A stretch of DNA of 64,000 nucleotides from Spongiivirga citrea (GTDB taxonomy: Bacteria; Bacteroidota; Bacteroidia; Flavobacteriales; Flavobacteriaceae): assembly GCF_010671565.1 (NCBI RefSeq), contig NZ_JAABOQ010000003.1, positions 248,001-312,000 of the forward strand, written 5' to 3'. The notes beneath the pieces are model-generated. The model was given only the letters and a program-made list of their open reading frames with translations, did no database searches and had not been told where the DNA came from. A program made the position numbers and the translations under genes. Shown here piece by piece: positions 15,714 through 60,330 of this stretch (the stretch's first letter is position 1; each line of letters opens with the position of its first letter).

Positions 15714-16334
15714 ATGAAAAACATTTTTGTTACCGGAATATCTACAGAAGTCGGCAAAACGATAGCTTCTGCCATTATTGTTGAAGCTTTAGAGGCAGAT
15801 TATTGGAAACCTATTCAATCTGGAGATCTAGATAATTCTGACACTCATAAAGTTGAAAAGTTAATCTCAAACAGTCGATCTGTTTTTCACCCTAATAGCT
15901 ATGCTCTAAAAACACCGATGAGTCCGCATGCGGCAGCTGAAATAGATGGCGTTACTATTAAATTAAAAGATATACAATCCCCAAAAACTAACAATAATTT
16001 AGTGATTGAAGGTGCTGGAGGCCTTCTAGTGCCGCTTAATAACAAGAATACTATTGCCGATATTATACTACCTGACTATAAAATAGTACTTGTTAGTCGT
16101 CATTATTTGGGAAGTATTAATCATACACTATTATCAATTGAATATTTGAAAAGTAAGGGATTGCAGGTTGCTGGTATTATTTTTAGTGGAGCTGAACATC
16201 CAACAACAGAGACAATTATTAGAAAAATGACTAAGACTCCCATCATAGGACGCATTGATGAAGAACCTTATTTTGATCAAAATGTCATTAAAGAATATGC
16301 TGAGTTATTTAGGGGAAATTTGGAAACTTTATAA
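15714..16334 (+). CDS. bioD: Dethiobiotin synthetase
   Basis: ATP-dependent carboxylation of 7,8-diaminopelargonic acid to dethiobiotin; 206 residues. The P-loop is GISTEVGKT (residues 8-16), where most homologues have GTDTEVGKT. YWKPIQSGD and EGAGGLLVPLN are conserved substrate-binding blocks. It is separated from bioA by a GIY-YIG gene and its palindromes, which suggests a formerly continuous bioD-bioA pair. Confidence 0.93.
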   Translation: MKNIFVTGISTEVGKTIASAIIVEALEADYWKPIQSGDLDNSDTHKVEKLISNSRSVFHPNSYALKTPMSPHAAAEIDGVTIKLKDIQSPKTNNNLVIEGAGGLLVPLNNKNTIADIILPDYKIVLVSRHYLGSINHTLLSIEYLKSKGLQVAGIIFSGAEHPTTETIIRKMTKTPIIGRIDEEPYFDQNVIKEYAELFRGNLETL

Positions 16335-16338
16335 CGAG

Positions 16339-16370
16339 CGTCACCCTGAACTTGTTTCAGGGTCTCATCA
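16339..16370 (+). repeat. Palindromic repeat R1 (inverted orientation)
   Basis: CGTCA, then stem ACCCTGAA / TTCAGGGT around CTTGT, then TCTCA. The outer ends CGTCA and TCTCA give it a direction opposite to R2 and R3. It begins four bases after the bioD stop. Confidence 0.8.
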
Positions 16371-16450
16371 GAGCATCCAGTATAAGTTTTATGATTAGCT
16401 TTACTAATTGACCAGCACTTGCTATAATTTTGAAATAAAAAAGCTTTTAG

Positions 16451-16479
16451 TGAGATGCTGAAACTAGTTCAGCATGACG
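16451..16479 (+). repeat. Palindromic repeat R2
   Basis: TGAG, then stem ATGCTGAA / TTCAGCAT with loop ACTAG, then GACG. It ends 12 bases before the GIY-YIG start codon. Its arms are identical to those of R3. Confidence 0.85.
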
Positions 16480-16491
16480 TAAGTACGAAAA

Positions 16492-16770
16492 ATGAAGGAA
16501 AGTTATATTTATGTATTAACTAATAAATATCGAACTACATTTTATATTGGTGTCACAGGAAATTTAAAGAAAAGACTCGTTGAACATACTAGTGGAACGG
16601 GTTCTAAATTCACAGGCAAATACAATGTGGTCGATCTTATTTATTTTGAAGTCTTCACGGATATTAATCAGGCAATAGCAAGAGAAAAGCAATTAAAAAA
16701 CTGGCGCAAAGAATGGAAGTTGAATTTAATTAGAAAAGTCAACCCAACTTTGGCAACATTGGAATACTAA
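16492..16770 (+). CDS. Small GIY-YIG nuclease-family protein
   Basis: A 92-residue, single-domain GIY-YIG protein of the UPF0213/YhbQ-like size class. Visible motif positions: YIYVLTN and FYIGVTG (the GIY and YIG halves), Arg in KKRLVEH, and the metal-binding Glu in IAREKQLKNW, so the active site looks complete. There is no DNA-recognition domain beyond the basic C terminus (WRKEWKLNLIRKVNP). It is bracketed by palindromic repeats and splits the bioD-bioA pair. A role as a nicking enzyme acting on the palindromes is an inference; a housekeeping DNA-processing role is the alternative. Confidence 0.9.
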   Translation: MKESYIYVLTNKYRTTFYIGVTGNLKKRLVEHTSGTGSKFTGKYNVVDLIYFEVFTDINQAIAREKQLKNWRKEWKLNLIRKVNPTLATLEY

Positions 16771-16776
16771 TTATGA

Positions 16777-16806
16777 TGAGATGCTGAAAAAAAGTTCAGC
16801 ATGACG
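16777..16806 (+). repeat. Palindromic repeat R3, directly before bioA
   Basis: TGAG, stem ATGCTGAA / TTCAGCAT with loop AAAAAAG, then GACG. It ends five bases before the bioA ATG, so the hairpin occupies the translation initiation region. Confidence 0.85.
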
Positions 16807-16811
16807 AAACT

Positions 16812-18083
16812 ATGAGTAGCATATCAAAACGCGATAGCAAATACATCTGGCATCCACTGGTGCAACATAAGCATCAAAAAGAAATGCTCGCTATAAAAAG
16901 CGCAAAAGGAGTCGTCCTTACTGATGAATCGGGTAATGAATACATTGATGGCATTTCATCTTGGTATACTGCCGTTTACGGTCACTGTAATTCGTTTATT
17001 ACTGAGAAAGTTCAGGAACAAATGCAACAATTAGATCAAGTGGTTTTTAGCGGATTTACCCATGAACCTGCCGTAAAACTATCCGAAGCTTTGATGAAAA
17101 TATTGCCGGATAATCAAGCTAAGCTTTTCTTTTCCGATAACGGATCGACTGCAACCGAGATTGGGATAAAAATGGCTTTGCAGTATCACTTTAACAAGGG
17201 TAATAAGCGTAATGTGCTAGTAGCTTTTGAAGAAGGATTTCATGGTGATACTTTTGGTGCGATGTCTATTTCAGGACTTTCCGTTTACAACGGCCCCTTT
17301 GAAGAGTTTTTTATTGATGTAAAACGTATTCCCGTTCCGAATGGTGAGAATAACCAAGAGGTGTATGATCAATTAAAAAGCTATATCGATCAAGATAATA
17401 TTGCTGGTTTTGTATTCGAACCCCTTGTCCAAGGAGCTGCCGCTATGAAAATGCATGATGCTAACCGACTAGATGCTCTAATCAAACTATGTAAGGAAAA
17501 TGAAGTTATAACGGTTGCCGACGAAGTAATGACAGGCTTTGGTAAAACCGGCACCTATTTCGCATCGGATCATTTAACCAATAAACCAGATGTTATTTGT
17601 ATGTCGAAGGCATTAACAGCAGGCTTACTCCCAATGGCAGTAACAAGTTGTACCCAAGAAATTTTTAATGCTTTTTATGATGATGATATTAGTAAGGGTT
17701 TGTTTCACGCGCATACATACACAGCTAATCCGCTTTCATGTACTGCGGCCCTCGCCGGAATTGAATTATTGAAATCAGATGAAATTCAGCAAAACATAAA
17801 AAACATTATGACCTGGCATCTAGAGTTTGGTCAGAAGATAGCCGGACATCCTAAAGTAAAAAGCATTCGGCAAATCGGAATCATCTTTGCCTTAGATTTA
17901 AATGTTGAAATGGCTCGCTATGGAAATCTAAGGGACAAACTCTATAAATTTTTTATGGATAATGGAGTTTTCCTAAGACCATTAGGCAATACTATTTACA
18001 TTTTAGCACCCTATATCACTACCAAACAACAAATGAGCAAGATCTATGATGTGATTGAGCGATCATTCCAGATTATCGAGTAG
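16812..18083 (+). CDS. bioA: Adenosylmethionine--8-amino-7-oxononanoate transaminase
   Basis: A PLP transaminase making 7,8-diaminopelargonic acid in biotin synthesis; 423 residues. Seen: IWHPLVQHK at the N terminus, ISSWYTAVYGHCN (residues 48-60), FSDNGSTATEIGIKMA, VADEVMTGFGKTG with Asp237, and the PLP lysine Lys266 in CMSKALTAGLLP. The start lies five bases after palindrome R3. The 3' end overlaps the convergent Coa1-like gene by 21 bases. Confidence 0.95.
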   Translation: MSSISKRDSKYIWHPLVQHKHQKEMLAIKSAKGVVLTDESGNEYIDGISSWYTAVYGHCNSFITEKVQEQMQQLDQVVFSGFTHEPAVKLSEALMKILPDNQAKLFFSDNGSTATEIGIKMALQYHFNKGNKRNVLVAFEEGFHGDTFGAMSISGLSVYNGPFEEFFIDVKRIPVPNGENNQEVYDQLKSYIDQDNIAGFVFEPLVQGAAAMKMHDANRLDALIKLCKENEVITVADEVMTGFGKTGTYFASDHLTNKPDVICMSKALTAGLLPMAVTSCTQEIFNAFYDDDISKGLFHAHTYTANPLSCTAALAGIELLKSDEIQQNIKNIMTWHLEFGQKIAGHPKVKSIRQIGIIFALDLNVEMARYGNLRDKLYKFFMDNGVFLRPLGNTIYILAPYITTKQQMSKIYDVIERSFQIIE

Positions 18084-58538: not shown

Positions 58539-60330
58539 TGTTATGTTCAAAATAGTTTTTGAGTTTCATAGCTTTCGACCTTCCTACAACTTCCTCTAAT
58601 TCATTAAATGAAGCGCCGGATACCCGCTTGGCTGATTTAAATTTTTTAAGCAGATTTTCTGCTGTTTGTTTTCCTATTCCGGGGATATTTTCTAACGAAT
58701 TTGTTATGGCAGCACTACTTCGTTTATTTCGATGAAATGTAATACCAAAACGGTGTGCTTCGTTACGTAAATATTGAATAATCTTTAAGGTTTCCGACTT
58801 TTTGTCGAGATACAAAGGGATAGGATCATCAGGATAAAACAACTCTTCTAATCTTTTTGCAATCCCTACAATAGCAATTGTACCTCGTAACCCCAATTTA
58901 TCTAAACTTTTTAATGCTGACGAAAGCTGTCCTTTTCCTCCATCAATGATGATTAATTGCGGTAAAGGTTGCTCTTCTTCAACCAATCTTTTATAACGGC
59001 GATAAACAACTTCTTCCATTGATGCGAAATCGTCAGGACCTTCGACTGTCTTAATGTTAAAATGACGGTAGTCCTTTTTGGAGGGTTTCCCATCTTTAAA
59101 AACAACACAAGCTGCAACCGGATGTGTTCCTTGAATGTTTGAGTTATCAAAGCATTCAATATGACGCGGTTCTTGGCTAAGCCTCAAATCCTTTCGCATT
59201 TGAGCCATTATGCGATTCGCATGCCTGTCAGGATCTGTTATCTTGACCTGTTTAAAGCGCTCCATTCGGTAGAATTTTGCGTTGCGTTCTGATAGTTCGA
59301 CAATGCGTCTTTTATCACCCAGTTTAGGAATAGTTACTTTAATTTTCTCACCAAGATCGACCGCGAAAGGAACATACACCTCTAAAGATTGGGAATTAAA
59401 GCGTTGGCGAATCTCAACTATCGCTAACTCGAGTAACTCTGTGTCGCTTTCTTCTAATTTCTTTTTAATTTCTAGTGTATGAGATCGAATAATCGAACCA
59501 TGTGCTATTTGCAGGAAATTAACGTATCCATAACTATCATCAGATACGATCGAGAATACGTCCACATTGGTAATCTTAGGATTCACGATGGTAGATTTTG
59601 CCTGATAGCCTTCAATAATTTCGATCTTGTCTTTTACTTTTTGCGCTTCTTCAAATCTCATTTCTGCGGCAAGTGTTTTCATTTGCCTTTTAAAATCTCC
59701 TAAAGATTCTTTAAAATTCCCTTTAATTATTTGCCTTATGGCAGCAATCCCTTCGTTGTACGATTCCTCATTCTGTTTTTGCTCGCATGGGCCCAGACAA
59801 TTTCCCAAATGGTACTCTAAACACAATTTGTATTTTCCTGCTTCTATTTTCTCTTTTGATAAATCGTAATTACAAGTGCGTAAAGGATACAAGCCTTTAA
59901 AAAGATCAAGCAATGCCCGGACCGTTTTTACGCTGGTATATGGTCCGAAATATTCTGATCCGTCTTTGACTAATTTACGAGTGAGAAATACTCTTGGAAA
60001 ACGTTCATTTTTTATACAAATCCAAGGGTAGGATTTATCATCTTTTAAAAGCACATTGTAGCGTGGCTGGTACTTTTTTATCAGATTGTTTTCTAATAAC
60101 AAAGCGTCAGTTTCAGTTGGGACTACGATATGCTGTATCTCGACTATTTTTTTGACTAAAATTCTGGTCTTGCCGTACTCGTGATTTTTCTGAAAGTAAG
60201 ATGAAACGCGCTTTTTTAAATTCTTTGCTTTACCAACATAGATAACAACCCCATTTTTATCATAAAATTGATATACCCCAGGACTATTGGGCAATGTATC
60301 TAACTGAAGTTGAAGCGAGGGTGCGTCCAT
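58531..60330 (-). CDS. uvrC: Excinuclease ABC subunit C
   Basis: A 599-residue nucleotide-excision repair nuclease: N-terminal GIY-YIG domain (about 12-95; GVYQFYDKNGVVIYVGKAKN), the Cys-rich patch CLEYHLGNCLGPC, UVR helix (about 200-240), C-terminal RNase H-like nuclease (about 380-520; CFDNSNIQGTHPVAACVVF, IIDGGKGQLSSAL) and HhH repeats at the end. Upstream of the patatin gene, which it overlaps. Confidence 0.96.
   Translation of the reverse strand: MDAPSLQLQLDTLPNSPGVYQFYDKNGVVIYVGKAKNLKKRVSSYFQKNHEYGKTRILVKKIVEIQHIVVPTETDALLLENNLIKKYQPRYNVLLKDDKSYPWICIKNERFPRVFLTRKLVKDGSEYFGPYTSVKTVRALLDLFKGLYPLRTCNYDLSKEKIEAGKYKLCLEYHLGNCLGPCEQKQNEESYNEGIAAIRQIIKGNFKESLGDFKRQMKTLAAEMRFEEAQKVKDKIEIIEGYQAKSTIVNPKITNVDVFSIVSDDSYGYVNFLQIAHGSIIRSHTLEIKKKLEESDTELLELAIVEIRQRFNSQSLEVYVPFAVDLGEKIKVTIPKLGDKRRIVELSERNAKFYRMERFKQVKITDPDRHANRIMAQMRKDLRLSQEPRHIECFDNSNIQGTHPVAACVVFKDGKPSKKDYRHFNIKTVEGPDDFASMEEVVYRRYKRLVEEEQPLPQLIIIDGGKGQLSSALKSLDKLGLRGTIAIVGIAKRLEELFYPDDPIPLYLDKKSETLKIIQYLRNEAHRFGITFHRNKRSSAAITNSLENIPGIGKQTAENLLKKFKSAKRVSGASFNELEEVVGRSKAMKLKNYFEHNNA

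Follow-up and report, generated by a model that had tools for sequence, protein, structure and literature searches.

Why does a small GIY-YIG nuclease gene lie among palindromes in the bioD-bioA spacer of Spongiivirga citrea, and do gene and palindromes together make up a REP-like mobile unit, as an earlier note on this DNA had proposed? That note had set two tests beforehand, namely enrichment of palindromes beside small GIY-YIG genes and empty bioD-bioA sites in relatives, and had asked for solo palindromes. The locus lies in the window, by which we mean the whole 64-kb stretch of DNA that was analysed, and is composed of the following features:

15714-16334, + strand: bioD, the upstream host gene (name read from the translation and the operon context)
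16339-16367, + strand: R1, a CGTC-tagged palindrome made of CGTC and the stem ACCCTGAA with a loop of 5, tag outward; likely left end
16451-16479, - strand: P2, a CGTC-tagged palindrome with the stem ATGCTGAA and a loop of 5, tag toward the gene; internal
16492-16770, + strand: small GIY-YIG nuclease gene, 92 aa (open reading frame and Pfam GIY-YIG)
16777-16806, - strand: P3, a CGTC-tagged palindrome with the stem ATGCTGAA and a loop of 6, tag outward; likely right end
16339-16806, no strand assigned: the whole unit, R1, P2, the GIY-YIG gene and P3
16812-18083, + strand: bioA, the downstream host gene (name read from the translation and the operon context)

The 92-aa reading frame matches Pfam GIY-YIG with 63 bits over most of the protein length. 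P2 and P3 have identical arms (TGAGATGCTGAA / TTCAGCATGACG) and lie 12 and 6 nt from the gene ends; coordinates, distances and arms of this 92-codon gene and its palindromes had been given correctly in the earlier note. It was also right that the unit splits bioD, which ends at 16334, from bioA, which starts at 16812, and that a third palindrome with related arms is present upstream in inverted orientation: R1 is an inverted relative of P2 (83% complementary) and reads CGTCACCCTGAACTTGTTTCAGGGTCTCA on the + strand, P2 and P3 reading CGTCATGCTGAA...TTCAGCATCTCA on the - strand. Within the 64-kb window, there are just two copies of the exact 12-mer arm, both at the GIY-YIG unit, compared with about 0.01 expected (an estimate); therefore, the palindrome pair is not a product of chance. 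What had to be revised is the bracket, which the note had taken to be the direct pair. R1 and P3 are inverted with respect to each other, carry their CGTC tags outward and reach to 4-5 nt from bioD and bioA, filling the spacer, and thus the unit is best read as 16339-16806, with R1 and P3 as its likely ends. P2 is an internal copy that forms a REP dimer together with R1, and only P3 of the direct pair is terminal. A second GIY-YIG match in the window, at 60055-60282 on the - strand, lies within a 610-aa reading frame and is most likely uvrC.

CGTC-tagged REPs are widespread intergenic repeats of bacteria, reported in Bacteroidetes, Neisseria, Bradyrhizobium, A. lipoferum, S. meliloti and others, and according to the survey of Di Nocera, De Gregorio and Rocco (2013, PMC3733652), which left their mover open, the superfamily apparently lacks a dedicated transposase. 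Its members have an unpaired CGTC or TGTC tag and an 8-9 bp stem that starts with A-T pairs and encloses a loop of 4-5. All three palindromes of the unit carry CGTC, and their 8-bp stems with loops of 5, 5 and 6 fit with small departures; P2 and P3 begin with AT and R1 begins with AC. Further likenesses are dispersed copies, head-to-head (hetero)dimers, as in the gene-less dimers of the R1/P2 kind at L008 and L010, and a low copy number in the window's genome, where the palindrome pattern GTCANNCTGAANNNNNTTCAGNNT has 7 copies in 4.15 Mb and the reversed-pattern control has 0. The tail differs, being CTCA here and not CCA, which is the consensus of most but not all CGTC REP tails (PMC3733652) and is common in the proteobacterial relatives of the unit. 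Moreover, no transposase gene was linked to these repeats in the 2013 survey, whereas most members examined here accompany a small GIY-YIG gene. By their letters, the palindromes of the unit match the CGTC REP superfamily and would belong with it.

The association of gene and palindrome was surveyed with an alignment of the genome's three GIY proteins as query, on 80 loci taken across sequenced species and another 30 within the window's family. Repeats shared between the 200 nt upstream and the 200 nt downstream of a gene were scored in a flank-match test that presupposes no repeat family and so also covers families whose short stems escape a strict hairpin definition. Results showed matching flanks around 77 of the 101 small GIY-YIG genes versus 4 of the 144 other genes of the same loci (p=1e-36, optimistic like the other p-value given here, as related loci are counted as independent), which is the enrichment that the earlier note had set as a test; one of the 4 positive neighbours (L033:431-755) coincides with a second GIY-YIG match in that stretch. 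Inverted flank matches numbered 52 for GIY genes and 0 for their neighbours. Under the strict test, with a YGTC tag and a hairpin on both sides, the counts were 17/101 versus 0/152 controls. A GTCA-like tag was found in 71 of the 77 bracketed loci, and tags pointed outward in 129 of 191 palindrome copies. About a quarter of the GIY genes had no matching flanks at the threshold used, and 28 genes received the label 'none' by short motif; on inspection, several of these proved to have palindromes of another type. The bracketed loci span Bacteroidota, Alpha-, Beta- and Deltaproteobacteria, candidate phyla, Chloroflexi, Elusimicrobia, Planctomycetota, Actinomycetota and Cyanobacteria. In phages, the matches were weak or partial only.

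The bracketing is also specific to the subfamily, since, within one set of Bradyrhizobium genomes, palindromes bracket 26 of 29 genes of this GIY subfamily versus 0 of 26 genes of another small GIY-YIG subfamily (p=1e-12, also with related loci counted as independent). These controls bear on whether the palindromes are terminators or mRNA-stabilising hairpins that gather near any intra-operon gene. They are indeed intergenic and could form RNA hairpins, but the tag and the arms have a specific sequence that agrees between the two sides of the gene, and an explanation of this kind has next to no probability left. Plain terminators were rejected, as both the control genes of the same loci and the other GIY-YIG subfamily of the same genomes are without palindromes.

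The bracketed gene encodes a GIY-YIG protein and not a HUH Y1 tyrosine transposase. Y18, G20, R28, H32 and E65 do not vary among 61 relatives, and Y7 and N84 hardly do, a pattern as expected for a putatively active GIY-YIG nuclease. The structure model of the 92-aa protein has a pLDDT of 90.5, and the nearest solved structures and sequences, which are also the closest folds, are the UPF0213 proteins (1zg2, 1ywl), Slx1 and the UvrC N-domain. GIY-YIG enzymes hydrolyse phosphodiester bonds without a covalent intermediate and are unable, alone, to rejoin ends. This makes it unlikely that the protein is a true transposase analogue of the RAYT kind, which would by itself cut out palindrome units as single strands and insert them elsewhere, and for the same reason we prefer a homing-like route through repair to strand transfer of the RAYT type. 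The anatomy is nevertheless close to that of REP/RAYT elements, with tagged palindromes, outward dimers, a gene between them and gene-less dimers (PMC3733652). REP/REPIN-RAYT systems have in common with the unit also the inversion of the dimers and a low copy number of the enzyme gene compared with more numerous non-autonomous copies, but they use a HUH Y1 transposase where a GIY-YIG protein is found here, and a GTAG tag where CGTC is found. GIY-YIG homing endonucleases (I-TevI and relatives) share the catalytic domain; the protein described here differs in being free-standing, 92 aa long, with no intron seen and no separate DNA-binding domain, and in having dispersed palindromes as targets where theirs is one allelic site.

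Enzyme type tracks palindrome type. When 45 loci from different genera and phyla were compared, the identity of the GIY proteins correlated with palindrome arm similarity with a rho of 0.26, the maximum of 1000 permutations being 0.13. One Bradyrhizobium genome holds three GIY paralogues with three different palindromes, and two of these pairings were found again in a second genome. The GIY gene of N. gonorrhoeae, whose product is about 40% identical to the window protein, is bracketed by dRS3-type palindromes and is closest to genes of a deltaproteobacterium, a Desulfobacteraceae bacterium and a Sphingomonas with the same CGTCATTCCCGC palindrome. Among 61 genomes of the window's family, at least 3 CTGAA palindromes were present in 17 of the 36 with a GIY gene versus 0 of the 25 without, and copies of the palindrome pattern reached up to 37 in relatives versus 0 in reversed controls.

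In the S. citrea genome itself, palindromes of the window's type also stand by themselves, with no GIY gene among them: two form a dimer at C13:52.8 kb and three a cluster at C11:588.6 kb. Solo copies of this kind had been asked for in the earlier note. Two more small GIY-YIG genes are present, with flanking repeats that differ between them and from those of the window: inverted CTGAGCGCAGTCGAAG repeats at C13:215787 and TGTCAGTTCGAGTG...ATCGAGAAC repeats at C11:573152. The gene at C13:215787 (L001) and a Muricauda GIY gene (L291) have in common the CTGAGCGCAGTCGAAG repeats and a downstream neighbour that reads as queG. Considering that REP-like elements are normally RAYT-linked and that the genome has a single Y1 transposase match (L134, G000:C10:557609), it could be argued that a RAYT or IS transposase moves the palindromes, with the GIY gene as a passenger carried between them. 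However, L134 has no CGTC palindromes in the flanks inspected, CGTC-flanked transposase genes were not found by Di Nocera et al. (PMC3733652), and enzyme and palindrome types match across phyla, all of which renders such a passenger role very improbable. The repeats upstream of L134 are of the GCTCTGCGAA type, and it is possibly an ordinary RAYT-like gene.

Signs of mobility were found in Bradyrhizobium and Azospirillum, most amply in the former. In the groEL-lepB spacer of 66 Bradyrhizobium species, the GIY gene lies forward in 17 and in reverse in 13, 26 have a palindrome only and 10 have neither. Two of these spacers (L257 and L380) have kept the palindromes and the sequence just inside them and have lost the gene. 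In two others (L265 and L382), the outer flank and left palindrome are those of the forward lineage and the gene core is that of the reverse lineage, once per orientation; this core exchange is homing-like and looks more like repair than like RAYT-type insertion of whole palindrome units. As palindrome-only sites read GGAAT-GAC and units GGAAT-CCAT, the gene core appears, from these junctions, to sit inside the palindromic site, between GGAAT and GAC. A deletion between two palindromes can also yield palindrome-only sites and gives the same picture, so that gain and loss of the gene look alike there and the direction of change is not proven. Among the spacers without the GIY unit, L258, L280 and L387, for example, hold a second palindromic repeat family (GTAGCCCGGATGGAGCG...). 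Between sufB and sufC, a GIY unit is present in A. lipoferum 4B and absent from five relatives. In a Shinella, this spacer is occupied by a different GIY unit. When near-identical plasmids with filled and empty sites were sought, clear empty sites came to light (Azospirillum, Shinella), with flanks too diverged for an exact junction. No strain-level insertion with identical flanks was found among the loci compared, and therefore the exact target-site junction is not readable from them. The proposal of a REP-like mobile unit is thus supported by the enrichment of palindromes beside this GIY subfamily and by clean empty and palindrome-only sites in relatives.

As the genus is represented by one genome, the bioD-bioA spacer was compared at the family level. 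The GIY gene is found there in six genera, including that of the window, and a seventh genus has a GIY gene upstream of bioD instead. In other relatives several spacers have palindromes only and many are empty, the two genes overlapping or nearly abutting, as the test set beforehand had foreseen for a mobile unit. Three genomes (G004, G046 and G101) carry the GIY gene at the same place with a CGTCACx-type left and an ATGC-type right palindrome, and the left-end type of R1 recurs in L146 and L164. Between genera, GIY identity is 67-84% versus 60-81% for BioD/BioA, the pairwise values being uncorrelated. As the GIY protein differs between genera about as much as BioD and BioA do, the bioD-bioA unit looks old and long resident, common to several genera, and the copy of the window need not be active. 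In three genera of the family (L197, L211 and L219), a small GIY-YIG gene with decayed palindromes lies between what read as trpB and trpA, and L202, L215 and L220 share a second intra-operon GIY position. Old, vertically kept GIY insertions seem to be common.

That the gene has stayed so long between bioD and bioA in several genera, and between the apparent trpB and trpA in three, would suit a nuclease that serves its host, as would the conserved catalytic residues. The enzyme could be a site-specific single-strand nuclease whose action on dispersed palindromes might, for instance, restrict or modulate DNA uptake, and the bracketing would then be due to co-inheritance and not to self-spread. 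A 2025 paper in Nature Communications reportedly describes Ssn, site-specific single-strand GIY-YIG nucleases with a cognate dispersed repeat (NTS) in Neisseria and many homologues with their own specificities, and Ssn is said to have a role in Neisseria transformation. The unit resembles this in having a small free-standing GIY-YIG enzyme with conserved catalytic residues and a dispersed repeat that is putatively cognate; single-strand cutting would be a further likeness. The window protein is only about 40% identical to the N. gonorrhoeae GIY protein, which may be the published Ssn. On the contrary, a mobile unit would be expected to leave empty sites and gene-deleted derivatives, to show core exchange and to lie in opposite orientations, in different lineages, within a single spacer, all of which is seen, and several differently specific copies per genome would be odd for a host function. 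We consider a host-serving nuclease a real but clearly less probable explanation. Our literature search found no published link between GIY-YIG genes and REPs. The statement of the earlier note that it knew of no such system was probably too strong, as the pairing of enzyme and repeat is probably already known from the Ssn work. If that pairing is as reported, what is new here is the link to CGTC REPs and the evidence for a mobile unit.

We therefore favour, with a probability of roughly 75%, a minimal selfish unit that would consist of a GIY-YIG nuclease gene and its cognate CGTC-tagged palindromes. The sequences show the pairing, its subfamily specificity, the matched types, empty and palindrome-only sites, gene-deleted derivatives, both orientations and core exchange. 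In the proposed mechanism, the nuclease would recognise its own palindrome, probably as a hairpin in single-stranded DNA, and cut at or near the CGTC tag; host repair or replication would then copy the unit or the gene core. The core could thereby spread in a homing-like manner into existing palindromes in either orientation, and palindromes and dimers might reach new intergenic sites through the same cuts. Gene-less palindrome dimers would be non-autonomous derivatives, comparable to the REPINs of RAYT systems. Evenly balanced, in our estimate, is the broader proposal that the CGTC REP superfamily has its missing mobilising enzymes in the small GIY-YIG nucleases, and that such mobile DNA spreads its palindromes and its own gene through site-specific cuts and host repair, with no need of a transposase, recombinase or reverse transcriptase. 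As a partner that is specific to one subfamily and matched in type, the GIY-YIG enzyme is a concrete candidate for the mover of these repeats, and with 92 residues it lends itself to direct assays on the palindrome that flanks its gene. If the proposal is true, many intergenic repeats of Bacteroidota and Alphaproteobacteria would form one kind of system together with the dRS3-type repeats of Neisseria, and if cutting and host repair suffice for spread, DNA could become mobile in a simpler way than through the known transposons. Site-specific nucleases could also be drawn readily from such matched pairs of enzyme and palindrome.

Two further arrangements were noticed among the surveyed loci. 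At G021:C2:2394276-2395190, long arrays of CTGAA palindromes, mostly in the same orientation, lie on either side of a GIY gene. On a plasmid of Planktothrix agardhii (L305), the neighbours of a GIY unit with CGTC-like repeats are an MmeI-type restriction gene on one side and drmA of a DISARM system on the other.
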